From Spirulina sp. SIO3F2 (GTDB taxonomy: Bacteria; Cyanobacteriota; Cyanobacteriia; Cyanobacteriales; Spirulinaceae), in NCBI GenBank assembly GCA_010672165.1, contig JAAHHN010000031.1:1-41802 (forward strand): a DNA stretch of 41,802 bases. Reading direction: 5' to 3'. Within the stretch, counting starts at the first letter, position 1, and the number at the start of each line of letters is the position of its first letter. Position numbers and translations under genes: made by a program. The notes below the pieces were generated by a model. It did not search any database. It was not told the DNA's origin and worked only from the letters and a program-made list of their open reading frames with translations. Shown piece after piece: positions 341 through 35,602 of this stretch.

Positions 341-589
341 ATGACAAGAACTATTGCTGCGTTGTGCTTTGCTGGTCTAGGTTTGTTAGTTGGAATGAGT
401 ACTGGGTTAGTGTTTGAGAAAGCCGATCTGGAGCAATTTCGAACAACACGCGACTGTGTAGAGTGCGACCTAGTGGGGGCTGACCTGATGGAGGCTAACT
501 TGGAGAGGGCTAAACTGGAAGAGGCTGACCTGCGGGGGGCTTATCTGAAAAGGGCTAACCTGGGGTGGACTATTTTGATTGAGAGCTAA
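341..589 (+). CDS. Small exported pentapeptide-repeat protein
   Basis: An 82-residue protein. Residues 1-24 form a signal-peptide-like hydrophobic segment ([20 protein letters not shown]). From about residue 40 there is a short run of pentapeptide repeats of the A(D/N)Lxx type ([20 protein letters not shown], then AYLKRANL). Such repeats fold as a right-handed quadrilateral beta-helix, but about eight repeats make only two coils, so this may be a remnant or a small accessory protein. Two cysteines (DCVEC) precede the repeats. The gene is isolated between the IS630 end and the C-terminus of the convergent carotenoid oxygenase gene, whose true end (598) lies only 8 bases away. Function unknown. 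Confidence 0.6.
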
Positions 590-597
590 GTTGAACT

Positions 598-2686
598 TCA
601 AAAATATTTATAGATATAGTTGTCAAAAAAGTCTTGAATATCTTTAGTATTTTTATTAACTATATGGTCGTAATCTTCTTTGACATCGATACAATACTTT
701 GATTTTGACTTTTGGATTTTCTTGAGCCAAGTCGTATGCAATGTAAAACCTATTTTCATGTCAGGATGTTCTAGCTTACATAGTGGACCAGATGATATAT
801 TAGATGCATCAAAAATTCATATTTGACTACTTTTCCCAATAAAAACAACACAAGTAATATAACCATCAGTTGGATCGTCCATCTCTCCTTTCGGAATAAA
901 TTGAGGAGATAGCATCATATGGTCATGTGGAAAGAGATAATGGTCTTTAATTGACATAGATTCTGTTTCTAGATGGAATAGACTACATGGCTGTCCTTTT
1001 TTTGCTAACTCAATGACATCATTTAATGCAAGGAGTCGATATTTGTATTCCTCATAAGACTTACAAATATAACGAGTCATTAGGTCGCTCCAAAGACCAA
1101 ATGAGCCCCAGTAGAGGTTGCTTATTTTTCCAATGGGTGTACCATCATCATATCTTTCCAGATATGTGTATAGATCCGCAGCCCATGTGCAATTATTATC
1201 GGTAATCACCTTTGACGCAGTAATTATTCCTGTTTTGGCATCAATTTCATAACGTCCCAATCGACCAATATCAGTTATATTATGTTGCATTCCAGCCAAA
1301 TAATCAGGAATCGTATTTTTGCTGAATCCAGAAACCTCTTTTCTCCTTATCCACTCTGCAACTTGCATACCACACAGGTGAGAAACATGAAGTGTAATAG
1401 TCTGGTTTGGATTTTCATAATCCACAAGGAAATGAGCCGCTTCCAACGGAATTGAAACTTTTTTTGCAATAACATTAGTGCAATCATCTTTTAGATCAGC
1501 CCGTTGAACAATATAGATAATTGATTCAGGCGAAGCATTCTTCCCCAAGATACTTCTAAGCCATCCAGATAATTGATTGATTAATTGGGTTACACCAGCC
1601 ACAAAAGCTGTGTCCATCAAGATTACATAGTCTTTTGTTACTCCTATTTGATGAATTGTTTGGCGGATGGAAACTGGCTTGATGACTTTGGATTTTTCTT
1701 GAATTAGTAGCTGCCAACGTCTTAACTTGTTCACTCCATCCCAAGATAATAAATAAGTAAAGTCATCTAGTTTTTTGTCAGCCGATAAAAAAGATTTTAT
1801 ATTGATTCCATAAATAGTGATCAATGTCATTATCAGTAGAATTGATTGAAAAATGCTCGAAGAACTAAATCTGTAGATAATGCCAAATGTTATAAACAAA
1901 GAGACTGTCAAAATAAAACGAATAGACAAAGGTATTTTTATAAGCGAATCTACCAAAGGAATTGTGCTCATCAGATTAACCAAGGATCGTCCATAATTAA
2001 CTGTGAACATTTCACCCTTCCCTGAATAGTCAAATGCAAGATGTGCTGTACTCAAAATACTTCTAAAGGGTTGTTTGCTGAATAAATCGATAGAATCAAG
2101 CTCTCCTTTCCACTCACTATTTCTACCGACAGGATTAATCGTATCCAATGTTTCTAGATCAATTTCATAAGGACGACTGGTATCATACGTAACAAGCATA
2201 CGATCAGAATCATCATTTCCAAACTTCATTGCCAAAAAAGCAGTATTAAGTTGAGATCGTAACCCCAAGCTTATTGAGAAGCGAGAAATTCCCTGACTTC
2301 TAAACTCATAAAGAAAGCTTTTGTACCTATTGAAGTCGGGATCGATTTGAGTTGCAATATCTGCGTAATAATCAGGTGTTTTTACTAAACGTGTTTTCAA
2401 AAAGGCTTCATTATTGACATGAAAATCAAGTCGATATATCATGCCATCTCCATTCAAGAGTGAATCTCCCGTCTTTATTTTTGAAGCGATCAACGACTCT
2501 TCTCTTAAGACATCGTCATAAAAACCAACAGGAGCAATAATAAAAACAATGTCCACAAATATCTGGTGGAATCTCCCCTTCGACAACTGTGAGATGTAGA
2601 TCTACTTCTTTCCGACTTAGTTGCATTATGGAAGAAGGCACATGGTTTCCATTCTTTTTGGCATAAAAATCGATTTGCTTGACCAT
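598..2686 (-). pseudogene. Carotenoid oxygenase (RPE65/CCD family), interrupted by a frameshift and an in-frame TGA
   Basis: The longest open frame (817-2586, 589 aa) shows carotenoid cleavage dioxygenase blocks: LLNGDGMIYRLDF, RPYEIDLETLDT, STAHLAFDYSGKGEMF, IHQIGVTKDYVILMD, LEAAHF and LSPQFIPKGEMDDPTDGYI. These enzymes use a non-haem iron held by four histidines. Likely ligands are H182, H312 and H385 of this frame. The domain's start lies in another frame: from ATG 2686 it reads MVKQIDF..., ending VEGEIPPDICGH, and joins the main frame only if one base is skipped near 2542-2549, beside a T5 run. At the other end, TGA (817-819) sits exactly where Trp is expected (SSQI-[TGA]-IFDASN). Translation past it gives 73 more residues including FTLHTTW, the expected fourth ligand. 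Residues about 205-265 form two membrane spans inserted into the propeller. Sequencing error, recoding or decay are all possible; as written the product lacks its fourth ligand. Confidence 0.75.
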
Positions 2687-29188: not shown

Positions 29189-29473
29189 TCATGACTCCAG
29201 GTGTTTCTTCTGTGTCTGATTCCCCTGGTGCTGCCCATGTAAACTCACACCAAAGGGCACACAATAGGTCAACATTGCTGAAATCCAGCGATCGCGGCTC
29301 ATTTGCCCAGAAATTAATGCCGAACCGTGATTAATCACAAACAACACCGACCCCACACAAAGCGCCACCCGAAGCGCGGTTGAACGACAACCAGGATTCA
29401 TCACAATCGCAGTCACCTTTTGTAAACTTACCTGTTCCATTTTTCGATTTTCCACCAATACTGCTTGAAGCAT
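29189..29473 (-). CDS. nrtS: NrtS-type nitrate/nitrite transporter
   Basis: A 94-residue membrane protein with two spans. The core TALRVALCVGSVLFVINHGSA, then SGQMSRDRWISAMLTYCVPFGVSLHG, follows the NrtS pattern ALRVALxVGxxLFxINHGxxLxxGxxxxxRWxxxxLTYxVPYxVS. NrtS proteins are short membrane transporters for nitrate and nitrite described in some cyanobacteria and proteobacteria, distinct from the NrtABCD and NrtP systems. The true start may be Met 12 (29440) or a Met nearer the first span. No second nrtS-like gene lies beside it, so it would act as a homomer if active (inference). Assimilation genes are not in the window. Confidence 0.75.
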   Translation of the reverse strand: MLQAVLVENRKMEQVSLQKVTAIVMNPGCRSTALRVALCVGSVLFVINHGSALISGQMSRDRWISAMLTYCVPFGVSLHGQHQGNQTQKKHLES

Positions 29474-29969
29474 TTACTTTAAGCTCTGTAACATATTGTA
29501 AAGGTGATTGCGGCTGAGCAGCAGAAAAAACACGTCCGAGTTCTTGGATTTTGAGGCATCCTCTCCTCTCATTTTTACTGAGCAGATGCAGTAATTCAGT
29601 AGACTCAGCAAAAATAAGCTGTGTTTGTCTCTGAGCGATTCTGTCTATTAGGGACAAGCTGTGCAGTAGCAGTTGGACGCAAAATTTGAGTAATCAGTTG
29701 TATAGTTTTGGGCGAGCCGGATTCGACGCCATCCGTTTGAGTTGAGATAGAAGTTAAGTTCAATAAGCTCTTGAGGAATGTTCGGAGTTGAAATCGGAGG
29801 AGCCAGTGCGCAGTTACGGCTGACATTATATGAGTTGACAGCACGGACGTTGCGCTTGGGGTTAGGGTTGTTGGAGATTCCAGTTTTAGAGCGGATGTAG
29901 GTGGAAAAAGAACATTCCAGCTCTATAACCTTGATCTTCAGTCTCTCGGCTAATTTGGGAGAGGGATTT
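29474..29969. other. About 500 bases without a convincing gene
   Basis: Three overlapping minus-strand frames (29331-29657, 29605-29844, 29648-29983) cover this stretch in three different frames. None has recognisable motifs, and the 111-codon one overlaps the end of the PIN toxin gene by a GTG start. The succession of frames in one direction would fit a decayed gene, but I cannot name an ancestor. Confidence 0.4.
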
Positions 29970-30401
29970 TTATCCTTGTTCACTCACTGACCAATCTTCA
30001 AAAGTTAATCCCGGAATTCGCTCAAAATCCCGCCGATTCCGAGTGAGCAATGTTGCGGATTGGCTAAGGACGATCGCAGCGATTTTAAGATCTTGACTAC
30101 CGATCCGGATCTTCTGATTAACCAAAGATTGAAATTGGTGCTCTGCTTGAATGTTGTAATCTAAAATCCCAAAGTCACCTAAAAAGTCGAGGGTTTTAGC
30201 AAACCAGTGATATGCACTGACCCGCGCCAGTGGGTTGCTTGCTTTGCGAATTTGTGCGAGACGACCCCGAATAAGTTCTTCAGCACTGATGACAGTGATT
30301 ACAAGTTGGTTGGGTGAAACAGTAAGCAAGCGTTGACCAAGGGGTGGATGGCCACGTTGATACAGGCTCAAGTGGTCGCTATCTAGAATATACAGAGTCA
30401 T
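29970..30401 (-). CDS. PIN-domain toxin (VapC-like)
   Basis: A PIN-domain ribonuclease-type toxin of about 143 residues from the ATG at 30401 (MTLYILDSDHLSLYQRG); an upstream ATG at 30413 is less likely because it comes almost directly after the preceding stop. The acidic active site is visible: LDSDHLS at the N-terminus (first Asp), SAEELIRG in the middle (Glu), and GSQDLKIAAIVL (Asp) with TLLTRNRRDFERIPGLTFEDW, the ordinary VapC C-terminus. These enzymes cleave specific RNAs and are held inactive by a cognate antitoxin. The gene directly upstream (30415-30732) encodes the likely antitoxin. Confidence 0.85.
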   Translation of the reverse strand: MTLYILDSDHLSLYQRGHPPLGQRLLTVSPNQLVITVISAEELIRGRLAQIRKASNPLARVSAYHWFAKTLDFLGDFGILDYNIQAEHQFQSLVNQKIRIGSQDLKIAAIVLSQSATLLTRNRRDFERIPGLTFEDWSVSEQG

Positions 30402-30414
30402 TGCGATGAACACA

Positions 30415-30732
30415 TCACTCCAATTGCTGTTCTATATCTTGGTCAAGTTCCCGCCGATAGGTGGCAATTTCTGCTTGCAAATCATCAAAGGTCGGATCAT
30501 CCCGAAACCAGCCAAACTTCTCAAGCCAAGGATTCAAGGTCTGGGTTGTCAGAGGAATTTCGACTTGAAGTACTTCAACCTGATTATTTAGATAGTCTAA
30601 CAGTTGAGATTTAAGCTGATTGATCGCAGCATCTCGGCTTTTTTCAATGACAGTAACTTCAGGCCAGTCTTTGGCACGAGCGATGTAGCTGTCGTTATCT
30701 CGGCGGAGGATAACATCGTAAAGCATGACCAT
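30415..30732 (-). CDS. HicB-like antitoxin partner of the PIN toxin
   Basis: A 105-residue acidic protein. The N-terminal 55 residues (YDVILRRDNDSYIARAKDWPEV, then VIEKSRDAAINQLKSQLLDYL) form the partial RNase-H-like HicB fold, with a glycine/tyrosine pattern of beta-strands then a helix. The C-terminal tail WLEKFGWFRDDPTFDDLQAE, then YRRELD, is a common toxin-wrapping tail of cyanobacterial antitoxins. No ribbon-helix-helix DNA-binding domain is seen. It ends 13 bases before the toxin ATG, in the order antitoxin-toxin. Pairing of a HicB-like fold with a PIN toxin is less usual than VapB-VapC. Confidence 0.75.
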   Translation of the reverse strand: MVMLYDVILRRDNDSYIARAKDWPEVTVIEKSRDAAINQLKSQLLDYLNNQVEVLQVEIPLTTQTLNPWLEKFGWFRDDPTFDDLQAEIATYRRELDQDIEQQLE

Positions 30733-31395: not shown

Positions 31396-32223
31396 TTAGG
31401 CCTCATGAAGAATGCCCAAGTGTAATCGCAGCACAAACTCGCCCAGTTCAAAGATGCAGTTTGAGTCTCGGGGACGACGGTTCACCTTTTTGCGATCTGC
31501 AAGGTAACAGTAATCACAGACCACGTCATCAAAATTAGTCTCTGCGTTAATTCGAAGCAGGGGTAAATTAATGACCACACCTGTCATATCTGTACCTCTG
31601 AAATTCGTACCAAGCATATTACAGGGCAATTCTCTCATCGTGAAATTGACATATTTTAAATTGGCATTTTGAAAATTTGCTCGACTTAGATTAACACCAT
31701 CAAAAGCAGCATTCTCTAAATTTGAATTTATAAATGTAGATTGATGCAAAGAGACACGCCTAAACCATGCACTATTTAGCTTGGCAGAATTGAAGTTGGA
31801 TGCACTCATATCCGTATCGGATATCTCCAAGCCAACAGTTTCAACATCCTTAAAGCTCACAGCTCTCATGCTACTATCTTTCACGGTGAGACATCTACAA
31901 CGAGATTGAGAAAATTCCGAATTATCTAGGATTGTCTCAATGAAGCCATTGAATTCGATGTTTGAGTTTGTGAAGTTCGCTTTCTTGAGATTGCTTGCTC
32001 TTGAAAAAAAATTGAATATATTAGCATAAGAGAAATCAATACCTTCTAAATCTGATCCTCGAAAATCTCCGTGAGAAATCTTCGTATAGCTCGGATTTGC
32101 ATTTCTAAGATTGGCATTTTTGAAGTTGCAGCCTGACAAATTCTCATAGCTCAAATCAATCTGTTCCAGATTCCAGATCTCTTCCTGATCTCGGAGCTCT
32201 GAGAGTGCTTTTAAGACAATCAT
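31396..32223 (-). CDS. Pentapeptide-repeat protein, 3' part of a frameshifted gene
   Basis: 275 residues of imperfect pentapeptide repeats (LSYENLSGCNFKNANLRNAN), ending in the module GTNFRGTDMTGVVINLPLL, then NFDDVVCDYCYLADRKKVNRRP and a final ELGEFVLRLHLGILHEA. The same C-terminal module ends the neighbouring 698-aa protein. Reading upstream of this ATG in frame gives TYYWQDIKIDHETKASPKKM, which aligns with NWSNLRIDNGTKADDTKM in the 698-aa protein. So this is the second half of a homologous gene whose first half (32258-33379) is in another frame. Whether it is translated by itself is unclear; no good ribosome site precedes the ATG. AT-rich composition. Confidence 0.75.
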   Translation of the reverse strand: MIVLKALSELRDQEEIWNLEQIDLSYENLSGCNFKNANLRNANPSYTKISHGDFRGSDLEGIDFSYANIFNFFSRASNLKKANFTNSNIEFNGFIETILDNSEFSQSRCRCLTVKDSSMRAVSFKDVETVGLEISDTDMSASNFNSAKLNSAWFRRVSLHQSTFINSNLENAAFDGVNLSRANFQNANLKYVNFTMRELPCNMLGTNFRGTDMTGVVINLPLLRINAETNFDDVVCDYCYLADRKKVNRRPRDSNCIFELGEFVLRLHLGILHEA

Positions 32224-32257
32224 CTTTTTGGGGCTTGCCTTAGTCTCGTGATCTATT

Positions 32258-33379
32258 TTAATATCTTGCCAATAGTAGGTTTACGATTTGCACATCTCGT
32301 AGATCTGCCCCTCTTAAATCGACATTTTTGAAACAAATATTTCTGAGTTTTGCTCCTCGCAATACTGTGCCTCGGAAGCTTGAGTTAGAACAGTCGCTAC
32401 CGGATAAATCAGTATTAGACAGATCAGCATAATCAAAGCAAGCTCCCTTGAGCTGTAAATTTTGGAGATCTTGAGCCTGCAGTTTAAGATACGAAAAATT
32501 GAAGTAATTTAGAAATCTTTTCTTATTCTTAACATGTCCTAGAAAACTATAGATACAATTCTCTCCAGATTGTAGTCTAAACAAAAAGCGTAAAGTCGAA
32601 CTAATTCCCTGTGTAGACTTAGAGCCGTACTCAAGCCTTACTTTTATATTCTTTAGCTTAGTTGCTCGGAGATTCTTAATGTCATTTTTAAGGATCGCAT
32701 CCTGTAAATCTGCATCTCTTAAATCAGCGTTGTGGAGCTTTACATAGGAAAGATCGCTATTTTTTAGATTCACACCGCGGAGATTAGCTTCCCGAAGATC
32801 ACAGCGATGGAAGTTAAGTCCTGACAAGTCTACGCCACGAAAGTCCACTTCACGACAGCACTGACGCCTGAAATCAATTGCCTTGATATCAACTCCCTCA
32901 ACACCTCGATTAAGAATGCGCCAAATTGACCGGGCATTCTCATCAATCTGAGTTGTTTCATCAATGACAGCTCCAGAGAAGTTGACGCCAGTTAGCTCCG
33001 CCCCTGTAAAATCTGCTCTCCGTAAATCGGCTCCGGATAAATCTGTTTTCCGCAAATTAGCACAGCTAAAATCAGCGTTATACAAGACTGCCCCAGTCAA
33101 GTTCACATAGCTGATATTAGCCCCTCGAAACTGTCCCGCTGTCAAGTTGGCGTTTTTAAAATTCACCCCTTGTAGTAAACTGCCCTGACCCTTGACTTGG
33201 GTCAGATTAGCCGCTTCAAGCACAGCTGATGAGAAGTCCGCATCAGTGATGTCTGCTCCTGTCAGATCAGCTCTGGTGGGGAAACAAGTTCTTGTATAAC
33301 TTCCAGTGAATTTATGGTGACGAAAATCTGTGTGAGTGATGTCTTTCGCGTTGTGAGCTGCTCTCGGTTGCTGAGCCAT
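32258..33379 (-). CDS. Pentapeptide-repeat protein, 5' part of a frameshifted gene
   Basis: 373 residues. Pentapeptide repeats occupy about 30-150 and 175-240 (LSGADLRRADFTGAELTGVN). An interruption IDETTQIDENARSIWRILNRG, and a helical insert LRFLFRLQSGENCIYSFLGH, then KKRFLNYFNFSYLKLQAQDL, are shared with the 698-aa neighbour. It ends DLRDVQIVNLLLARY, but skipping one base in the AAA run at 32280-32282 gives DLRDVQIVTYYWQDIKID, which matches the neighbour's DLRSAHFKIKNWSNLRID without gaps and continues into the 275-aa frame. The intact gene would encode about 660 residues. Pentapeptide beta-helices generally act in protein or DNA-gyrase binding; the target is unknown. Confidence 0.75.
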   Translation of the reverse strand: MAQQPRAAHNAKDITHTDFRHHKFTGSYTRTCFPTRADLTGADITDADFSSAVLEAANLTQVKGQGSLLQGVNFKNANLTAGQFRGANISYVNLTGAVLYNADFSCANLRKTDLSGADLRRADFTGAELTGVNFSGAVIDETTQIDENARSIWRILNRGVEGVDIKAIDFRRQCCREVDFRGVDLSGLNFHRCDLREANLRGVNLKNSDLSYVKLHNADLRDADLQDAILKNDIKNLRATKLKNIKVRLEYGSKSTQGISSTLRFLFRLQSGENCIYSFLGHVKNKKRFLNYFNFSYLKLQAQDLQNLQLKGACFDYADLSNTDLSGSDCSNSSFRGTVLRGAKLRNICFKNVDLRGADLRDVQIVNLLLARY

Positions 33380-33505
33380 ACTGCTGCCTATCTGTACAAT
33401 ACAAAAAAATTAATCGGTTTATGACTGGCTACTTTTCAGTAACACTCCAGACAGACAAATAGATATAACTACGATGTTAAGTGCAACAGTTTAGTTTCTC
33501 TCAGT

Positions 33506-35602
33506 TTAGGCTTCATTGAGGATGCCCAAGCGTAGGCGCATTGCAAACTCACCCGGCTCAAAGTTGCAGTCTGAATCGCTGGGGCGACGACTTTTTCCAG
33601 AGGAAGACTCAATATAGCAATAGTCACAAATTACATCATCAAAGCTCGTTTTTGCATCCATCTGCCATTTTTCCAAGTTGATAACTACACCTGTCATATC
33701 AGCATCATTAAAGTTTGTTCCTTGCACATTACAGCATGAATTATTCTCAGTGAATTGAACAAATTTAAGGTTCGCTTTTCGCAAATTTGCCTGACTTAAA
33801 TCGACATTGCTTAACTTTGCTTCTGTTAAAACTGCACTTTCCAAGATCGCTTTATGGAAGTTGGTAGAGTCTAATATCACACGTGATAGGTCAGCAAAGG
33901 TGAATATCGATTCACTGAAATCCACTCTTGAGATTTTGGAAGCATTGAATTTGGAAGTAACTAATAATTTTGCATCTCTGAAATTTGCACTTTTAATGCT
34001 GTTGTCCTCGAATAAAGGAGAATCAAATCTAGGCGCTAGCTTGGAATTAGAAAAATCCACTTTGTCTAGAACTGCTCCTGAAAAGTTATTGAAACTAATA
34101 TGAGTTGAGCTGAGATTTGCAGCTTGCATATCAGCTCTTGAAAAGTTATTTTCCTGGATATGAGTTGAGCTGAAATTTGCAGCTTGCATATTAGCTCTTG
34201 AAAAGTTATTTTCCTGAATATGAGTCGAGCTGAGATTTGCAGCTTGTATATCAGCTCCTGAAAAGTTACTGGTCTGAATATGAGTCGAGCTGAGATTTAC
34301 ATCTTTCATATCAGTATTACTGAAGTCACAGTCCCACAACTCCTCACCACTCAGATCAATACCTCTGAGATCCCCAAAATCTTCTGGGTTGCGAGATTTA
34401 GCAACTGATCTTAATAGAACCATCTTTGTATCGTCAGCCTTTGTTCCATTATCAATCCTGAGATTTGACCAATTCTTGATTTTGAAGTGAGCGCTACGTA
34501 AATCTGCACCCCTCAAATCTGCATTATTGAAGCTGGTCTCTTTGAGAGATGTACTCTTAAATGTCACTCCCTGGAAACTAGAGTTATTACATTTACTTCT
34601 TGATAAATTGGCAGTATTTAAATTGGCATAGTTAAAGAATGCCGATCTTAAATCAAGATTGCTTAAGTCTTGATCACGTAGATTAAGATATGAGAAATTG
34701 AAATATCGGATATCTTGTTTTCTAGTGCGCACATACTTAATGAACTCTTTGACGCACTTTCCTCCAGACTGAAGCCTGAGCAAATAGGACAGTAACCGAG
34801 TGACTTTGGGAACTTTTCTGGATTCAAGAGTGATTTTGATTTTCCCCATCTTTGCCCCCCAGAAATTCTTGATCTCATTTTTTAGGATGGCATTCCGTAA
34901 ATCTGCGCCCCGGAGATCTGCCTGCTGAAAATTGGTGTAAGTTAGATTACTGCTGCTCAAGTTTGCATTTCGTAAGTTCGCACCCCGTAGATCACAGTGT
35001 TGAAAGTTTAATCCGGATAAATCCTTGCCACTAAAGTCTGCATCACAGAAGGATTGGTGCTCAAAGCTTACGGCTGTTAAATCGATCCCCTCAGTACCTT
35101 GATTGACAATTGTCCAGAGTAGCCTTGCGTTTGCATCGAATTGAGTTGTTTCATCAATAATCGACTTGGAGAAAACTGTACCTGCTAGATCGGCTCCGAT
35201 AAAATTTGCACCTCGCAGGTCAGCAGCACGTAAATTTGCTTTACGTAAATCAGCTTCTTGGAAATTTGCATCCCTAAGTACAGAGCCAGAAAGGTCAGCC
35301 TCATTGAGGTTCGCTGCTTGGAATTTCCCACATGTTAAATTTGAGTTCCGAATCTTTGCTCCTGCTAACTGACTCTTCACACCATTGATTTGGGTGAGAT
35401 TAACTTCATTTAAAGTTGCCAATGAGAAGTCGGCAGCGGTGATGTCTGATCCTTCTAGATCACAACCCTTGACGAAGATTGCTTTCCTATAACTGACAGT
35501 AAATCTTGTTTTACGCCACTCTTTCTTGGTGATTCTTTTGGGTTTAGGCGGAAGTGAAGGTGAAATTACACGCCATTCCTTTTCATCGATATCTCTCCAC
35601 AT
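33506..35602 (-). CDS. Large pentapeptide-repeat protein (intact paralogue)
   Basis: 698 residues. Order: N-terminal cap (1-45), repeats (about 46-160), break IDETTQFDANARLLWTIVNQ, repeats (about 185-250), a helical insert LLSYLLRLQSGGKCVKEFIK, then repeats to about 640, and the C-terminal module FDDVICDYCYIESSSGKSRR ending EPGEFAMRLRLGILNEA. Repeats of the A(D/N)LxX class build a right-handed square beta-helix of 20 residues per coil. Residues about 428-507 consist of four nearly identical 20-residue units (SSTHIQENNFSRANMQAANF type) encoded by 60-bp repeats. No signal peptide or catalytic domain is seen. The neighbouring pair of frames is a broken paralogue, so this locus is a tandem duplication. 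Function unknown. Confidence 0.82.
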   Translation of the reverse strand: MWRDIDEKEWRVISPSLPPKPKRITKKEWRKTRFTVSYRKAIFVKGCDLEGSDITAADFSLATLNEVNLTQINGVKSQLAGAKIRNSNLTCGKFQAANLNEADLSGSVLRDANFQEADLRKANLRAADLRGANFIGADLAGTVFSKSIIDETTQFDANARLLWTIVNQGTEGIDLTAVSFEHQSFCDADFSGKDLSGLNFQHCDLRGANLRNANLSSSNLTYTNFQQADLRGADLRNAILKNEIKNFWGAKMGKIKITLESRKVPKVTRLLSYLLRLQSGGKCVKEFIKYVRTRKQDIRYFNFSYLNLRDQDLSNLDLRSAFFNYANLNTANLSRSKCNNSSFQGVTFKSTSLKETSFNNADLRGADLRSAHFKIKNWSNLRIDNGTKADDTKMVLLRSVAKSRNPEDFGDLRGIDLSGEELWDCDFSNTDMKDVNLSSTHIQTSNFSGADIQAANLSSTHIQENNFSRANMQAANFSSTHIQENNFSRADMQAANLSSTHISFNNFSGAVLDKVDFSNSKLAPRFDSPLFEDNSIKSANFRDAKLLVTSKFNASKISRVDFSESIFTFADLSRVILDSTNFHKAILESAVLTEAKLSNVDLSQANLRKANLKFVQFTENNSCCNVQGTNFNDADMTGVVINLEKWQMDAKTSFDDVICDYCYIESSSGKSRRPSDSDCNFEPGEFAMRLRLGILNEA
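34081..34320. repeat. Four tandem 60-bp repeats in the pentapeptide gene
   Basis: Units start at 34081, 34141, 34201 and 34261, each beginning aaaagtta and carrying tgagt(t/c)gagctgaratttgc. The middle copies differ at only a few positions and the last one more. Sixty bases encode 20 residues, exactly four pentapeptides or one beta-helix coil, so unequal recombination would lengthen the helix coil by coil. Confidence 0.9.

Follow-up and report, generated by a model that had tools for sequence, protein, structure and literature searches.

A probable recent pseudogene in Spirulina sp. SIO3F2 from an insert-bearing carotenoid oxygenase subfamily that is often encoded directly upstream of a giant kinase gene

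The window analyzed here, a stretch of 41,802 nucleotides from Spirulina sp. SIO3F2 (contig JAAHHN010000031.1), carries on its minus strand, between positions 598 and 2686, a carotenoid-oxygenase gene that, when all frames are read, is split by a frame change and an in-frame TGA. An N-terminal piece (2549-2686; MVKQ...GEIPPDICGH), delimited by frame translation and by matches to relatives, begins at ATG 2686, and its frame continues as MVKQ...VVEGEIPPDICGH before reaching a stop at 2516-2518. The second frame, one base away, carries VFIIAPVGFYDD from position 2547 and is open for 1.7 kb, and the reading frames together with comparison with relatives place the one-base change within a T-rich stretch at 2541-2549. 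This main frame (820-2547) encodes the body of the beta-propeller, including three of the four conserved histidines, as judged from frames, Pfam and alignment, and ends at the in-frame TGA (817-819). Beyond it lies a C-terminal piece (598-816) that reads IFDASN...GFTLHTTWL...YKYF, contains the fourth conserved histidine and has its own stop, TGA 598-600. Numbered along the read-through frame, the four histidine codons occupy positions 2041-2043 (STAHLAFD; residue 182), 1651-1653 (QTIHQIGVT; residue 312), 1432-1434 (AAHFLVDY; residue 385, invariant, with an ambiguous match to the canonical third iron ligand) and 736-738 (FTLHTTW; residue 617), all on the minus strand.

A sequence-only reading of this DNA had proposed that the MVKQ frame is split by one base near 2542-2549, that the TGA at 817-819 stands where tryptophan is expected, that the last iron-ligand block (FTLHTTW) lies beyond that TGA, and that the remaining 1.7 kb of frame is clean, and the analysis bore out all four points. 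Among 96 intact relatives aligned with the window copy (97 copies labelled intact minus one with Ns; a plasmid copy from Bernardetia, L087, is not included), the TGA column contains W in 95 and H in one, the first three histidine columns contain H in all 96, and the fourth contains H in 95, the single gap belonging to a copy cut by a contig end. These relatives were chosen for their open frames, so the absence of breaks among them is partly by construction. Against the nearest relatives, the main frame and the C-terminal piece can be aligned from end to end, with 44-52% identity. For the 46-residue N-terminal piece, 12 of 98 intact relatives give a match at E values up to 0.01 (the best at 8e-5, with 47% identity over 30 residues), which suggests, modestly, that this piece is homologous. 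A homologue size of about 690 aa had also been anticipated, and several near relatives (L046, L047, L026 and L027) fall at 684-709 aa. Homologues that end naturally at the TGA site would have undercut the nonsense call, and there are none among the 96 intact or the 13 other broken copies.

The Pfam RPE65 model (PF03055; cut-off 27 bits) scores 82.1 bits on the frame as far as the TGA, and 112.9 bits with the TGA read through, placing the gene in the RPE65 family by sequence; in the same scan neither the C-terminal piece alone nor the N-terminal piece alone scores. Four histidines serve as iron ligands in the ACO and RPE65 structures, and no one product of the window gene would contain all four. 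With three histidines before the TGA and the fourth behind it, the window carries a broken gene of the family and not a working member. The one-base frame change cuts off the start of the protein and the stop codon removes the C-terminal segment carrying the fourth histidine, whose loss means that the product of ordinary translation should not hold metal. A shortened but working protein, for example with a carotenoid-binding or regulatory role, could instead be made from the 589-codon frame between TTG 2586 and position 817, which is open and retains most of the highly conserved columns. Such a protein would lack the N-terminal piece and the fourth histidine, the latter present in 95 of 96 intact relatives, and the frame shows a strong AT shift and an insert unlike that of relatives; we regard this explanation as very unlikely.

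We conclude, with a probability of about 0.84, that the window gene is a recently inactivated pseudogene and belongs to a subfamily of carotenoid-cleaving oxygenases from cyanobacteria. Recent decay, assembly error and recoding had been left to be told apart by the sequence-only reading, and recent decay is the best supported of the three. In the main frame, one nonsense codon in 649 codons, set against 287 one-step routes to a stop, corresponds to approximately 0.01 neutral substitutions per site. The window copy keeps 23 of the 25 columns that are conserved in at least 97% of the other copies, even though it sits on a long terminal branch (0.91, rank 6 of 97), and selection therefore seems to have held until recently. 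Its two departures in the 25 conserved columns rank 3 of 97, and these departures, together with the long branch, could reflect either a relaxation of constraint that preceded the breaks or the lack of close relatives. The genome itself (7.3 Mb in 453 contigs, 96.5% complete) contains two intact canonical carotenoid oxygenases and the window copy, which is the only one of its kind.

If the breaks were consensus or assembly errors at a contig end, the gene would be intact in the organism. Both lesions are single-base changes, one of them in a T-rich stretch, and the gene ends only 597 bases from the contig start, but such an artefact would need two independent errors in one gene, while the two canonical oxygenases of the same genome are intact and several relatives are broken by deletions or insertions too big to be base-call errors. 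As a control for the assembly, we used a 1,290-residue kinase query: it matches this genome 27 times, across 24 ORFs and ~27,400 matched codons (~82 kb), and none of the matches has an internal stop. With zero lesions in ~82 kb, the 95% upper-bound rate corresponds to 0.08 lesions per 2,089 nt, and the probability of two or more is ~0.003, a value that assumes evenly spread errors and leaves the contig end uncovered. The stop-free kinase matches make a generally error-prone assembly unlikely; a local sequence error at the window gene is possible, and overall we consider it improbable that the two breaks are artefacts.

Recoding would rescue a full-length enzyme by programmed +1 frameshifting plus readthrough of the TGA as tryptophan, and the otherwise clean frame and the tryptophan of relatives at the TGA position are what it would predict. 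It would, however, require two unrelated events in one gene, and the same breaks are absent from the 96 intact relatives (which were chosen to be open) and from the 13 other broken relatives, none of which is shifted by one base at the first site or carries a stop at the tryptophan column (L135, which lacks the first-break region, is uninformative there). The closest cases are an insertion ~8 residues before the first site in the second copy of L092, a large deletion starting near the first site in L167, and a TAA ~5 codons ahead of the tryptophan column in L138. A conserved recoding site, by which a gene with programmed frameshifting or readthrough would be recognized, was thus found in none of the relatives examined. 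The sequence-only reading had suggested looking for in-frame TGA codons in other genes of this genome; the 27 kinase matches have no internal stop and TGA is the ordinary stop of 5 of the 25 ORFs of the window, which together rule out genome-wide recoding of TGA. The window contains one tRNA gene, a tRNA-Met. Taken with the evidence above, recoding of this gene is extremely improbable.

The base composition of the gene stands apart from that of the window. Its G+C content is 34.9% (28.5% at third codon positions), while 23 of the 25 window ORFs lie at 42-57% and the remaining two at 39-40%, and among the 116 subfamily copies that we collected it is the one most AT-shifted against its surroundings. 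A shift of this size exceeds what so short a neutral time would produce, which points to an AT-rich donor from which the gene was probably imported. Our search for a donor among plasmids (PLSDB) and 388 genomes of the order yielded no close one, the best identity being 52%. Plasmids were rejected as the source, as the four matching PLSDB records reach only 43% at best and none is close, and a scan of viral contigs with an alignment of the relatives found no relative that would indicate carriage by phage. A chimeric contig end is possible as well; against it, the low-G+C gene is flanked by a pentapeptide ORF of higher G+C and by a repeat that has multiple copies in this genome. The pentapeptide-repeat ORF (341-589, plus strand; 82 aa), identified from the ORF list and Pfam, is convergent with the oxygenase gene and occupies the place where relatives often have a kinase gene. 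The repeat, a MITE-like element at 2829-2954 upstream of the gene, has near-full copies (97-99%) at no fewer than 10 other places in the genome, and a partial copy lies on the other side of the gene at 105-133, as a 29-nt arm that is 83% complementary to 2825-2853. The element has inverted ends (2818-2842 and 2941-2965), and many fragments of it occur elsewhere in the genome besides the near-full copies. Further along the window, three ORFs of low G+C (39-42%) lie at 31396-35602, and the two that were scanned encode pentapeptide-repeat proteins, the middle one belonging to the same cluster; a row of small ORFs at 29334-30732, one weakly PIN-like (below the Pfam cut-off), possibly represents toxin-antitoxin genes.

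A search with the read-through protein gave matches at E values up to 1e-3 in 32 of 59 genomes, a count that includes canonical oxygenases and the source genome itself. At E values up to 1e-40 the subfamily is present in 86 of 388 genomes of the order (again including the source genome), with a best identity of 52%. Of the 13 genomes in the family, 8 give matches at E up to 1e-3; for 5 of them, the source genome included, the E value is below 1e-40. Named relatives in genome contigs come from a UBA MAG, two Microcystis and a Snowella MAG, and four plasmid records in PLSDB also match. Our working set comprised 104 loci with 116 copies, namely the window and 103 of 107 fetched regions (L043-L045 and L090 were not counted). 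The open frames of the subfamily are long, with a median of 743 codons and 91 of the 98 intact copies at 600-830 codons; for canonical oxygenases most rows, among the matches listed, have 467-564 codons. Two carotenoid-oxygenase units share one long frame in L061 (7378-11769; 1,463 aa) and in L110 (contig G350:C7; 1,411 codons), and tandem oxygenase pairs occur in several other genomes. One relative, 31% identical to the window copy, lies on a plasmid of Bernardetia, a member of the Bacteroidota from red algae (L087, 7821-10028), and has no adjoining kinase.

The subfamily also carries an insert between the first and second histidine blocks, which in the window gene spans 1771-1980 (minus strand) by hydropathy and alignment and which, in a profile alignment, has no counterpart in canonical oxygenases. 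In the same alignment the first, second and fourth histidines correspond to canonical ones, and the third is ambiguous. The insert is 13-143 residues long in 23 relatives and ~65 residues in the nearest. In the window copy it resembles a membrane helix, with a maximum 19-residue hydropathy of 1.96 and two acidic residues; hydropathy exceeds 1.6 in only 4 of the 23 relatives, and for that reason we do not claim that the subfamily is membrane-anchored. A transmembrane hairpin, which the window insert would suggest, was likewise rejected as a trait of the subfamily, the window insert being atypical (4 of 23 relatives).

An AlphaFold2 model of an intact relative, L047, has a pLDDT of 87.5 and a pTM of 0.87, and its insert is helical (residues 222-285), with a pLDDT of only ~62-77 over much of its length. 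The best Foldseek match of the model is ACO (E 2.1e-21). With VIA-align it superimposes on NOV1 (7qr6_A) with Z 26.3 over 441 residues (target 471; rmsd 3.5) and on ACO (2biw_A) with Z 25.3 over 440 residues (target 479; rmsd 3.7), the Z scores ranging from 23.4 to 26.3 among the 50 matches listed. The model has the seven-bladed beta-propeller fold of ACO and RPE65, an observation that pertains to an intact relative and not to the product of the window gene. On this basis we expect the intact protein to be an iron dioxygenase built as a seven-bladed beta-propeller, with four histidines as ligands and an activity predicted from the family. The subfamily therefore shares with RPE65 (PF03055) family members such as Synechocystis ACO, NOV1, LsdA and VP14 a common Pfam match, the fold (as modeled for L047) and the four conserved histidines, and differs from them in being longer, in bearing the insert between the first and second histidine blocks and in its low identity to them (14-20%); the window copy differs further in being broken. 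The CCD7, APCO, CCD1 and CCD8 clades described by Cui et al. 2012 (PMC3299332) belong to the same superfamily and come from the same hosts. No clade that is long, bears an insert or is linked to a kinase is named in the Results section of that paper, with which the comparison is by description only, nor are any pseudogenes, and its 'CCD8' clade, drawn from a few Cyanothece, could be the present subfamily.

The window copy is one of many that are broken. The 116 copies comprise 98 that are intact, 14 that are broken, one that is partial (L146), one interrupted by Ns (L145, in which the shift falls at assembly Ns) and two cut by contig ends (L128 and L147). L087, in which the stop lies at the natural end, was counted as intact, and L049, which ends at a contig end, was kept among the 98. 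The broken copies are those of the window, L062, L065, L097, L130, L135, L137, L138, L141, L154, L166 and L167 and the second copies of L092 and L122, and among their lesions are shifts, stops, deletions and 1-1.7 kb insertions; L065 is broken by an IS630-type insertion with IS630-type transposase genes inside. Breakage thus affects 14 of 112 classified subfamily copies. For canonical oxygenases, in 60 of the 86 genomes, we counted by hand at least 130 rows with E below 1e-40, of which 126 are full length, in one frame and free of stops, and four are partial (two at contig starts, G181:C275 and G218:C192, and two ambiguous, G258:C934 and G181:C290); weak canonical fragments may be missing from these listed matches. 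Fisher's exact test of 14/112 against 0/126 gives p = 1.7e-5, or 3.5e-5 without the window, and p rises to 1.1e-3 if the two ambiguous canonical rows are scored as broken and to 6.4e-3 if all four are, with canonical oxygenases represented by the matches listed. Because the copies are phylogenetically non-independent and the two groups come from different searches, these values are only a guide. In the same cells, subfamily copies become inactivated more readily than canonical oxygenases do.

Many of the relatives stand directly in front of a kinase gene. In 47 of the 104 loci, a giant Pkinase-AAA_16 gene starts less than 400 bp downstream on the same strand; the median gap is 115 bp for the 45 loci in which the start was measured, and the other two (L096 and L125) were assigned by projection. 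Two of the 47 loci are on plasmids, and the 45 others span 15 family labels, including that of the window. Five of the kinase genes lie behind broken oxygenases (L097, L135, L137, L138 and L141) and one behind the contig-cut copy L128. L110, with its two copies, was counted once as a locus, and L046, which retains only a kinase remnant, is outside the 47. The kinase of L052 is counted but is only a piece: behind an intact oxygenase, the gene is interrupted (G044:C1, 5687773-5692999), with a 271-codon piece followed by a frame with a TAA, indicating that the partner can decay too. When all ORFs of the kinase cluster within 5 kb of an oxygenase are considered, 53 oxygenase-neighbor pairs are downstream on the same strand and five are elsewhere, a bias with a binomial p of 1.4e-26 against one slot in four, in a calculation that ignores relatedness and tandem copies. 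In 11 genomes, the number of background kinase matches runs from 2 to 34 per genome, and two genomes (G261 and G126) have only two matches each, one of which in both cases is directly behind the oxygenase. A named example of the pair is on plasmid2 of Fischerella sp. NIES-4106, where BAZ71151.1 is followed by the kinase BAZ71152.1. Against a general association, 57 of the 104 loci have no adjoining kinase, the Bernardetia plasmid copy included, although seven of these have less than 1.5 kb of downstream sequence; it also counts against the association that AAA_35 or TPS-secretion genes are the neighbors at some loci.

Pfam analysis of three partners (L025, L026 and L053) identified Pkinase, AAA_16, GAF and either SpoIIE or AAA_35 domains. 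The partners resemble HstK, a giant cyanobacterial kinase that is described (PMC2176072) as a single, very long protein with a Ser/Thr kinase domain and GAF domains. By that description HstK joins its Ser/Thr kinase to a His kinase domain, whereas the three scanned partners end in SpoIIE or AAA_35 and none of them contains a His kinase domain. A role for the kinases in defense was considered and set aside: the 25 PADLOC matches listed for each of two kinases fall on the kinase domain and so provide no evidence of defense.

We tentatively propose, with somewhat less than even confidence, that the intact relatives supply the enzyme of an as yet undescribed cyanobacterial signaling module of two genes. 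In this proposal, the insert-bearing oxygenase would produce an apocarotenoid or remove a damaged carotenoid, the giant Pkinase-AAA_16-GAF protein from the gene directly downstream would sense and relay that event, the pair would be gained and lost as an exchangeable unit, and the window copy would have lost its partner and died. Our main explanation of the window gene likewise supposes that an orphan enzyme of little selected value, without a kinase neighbor, would decay. No kinase gene is present beside the window copy in the 597 bp between the gene and the contig start, and it is because this downstream stretch is so short that we infer, and do not observe, the loss of the partner at this locus. 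The best kinase match in the source genome is 46% identical to the query, while each of ten other genomes has one of at least 49%, which fits with absence of the partner without proving it.

The decay of the window gene is ordinary in itself; what stands out is the linkage to a kinase and the high death rate of an insert-bearing subfamily that is often encoded directly upstream of a giant signaling kinase gene. In plants, the apocarotenoid beta-cyclocitral is a stress signal according to a review (PMC12878257); with an oxygenase and a kinase that are genetically linked in cyanobacteria, apocarotenoid sensing in bacteria would become directly testable. By title or abstract opening, no paper on the oxygenase-kinase pairing was found in PMC, a collection that misses most subscription papers. 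Other neighbors also recur around the oxygenase genes: cluster 2 at 18 loci (two members scanned, with AAA_35), cluster 3 at 17 loci (two scanned, with a TPS secretion domain) and cluster 4 at 10 loci (one scanned, with WD40 repeats).
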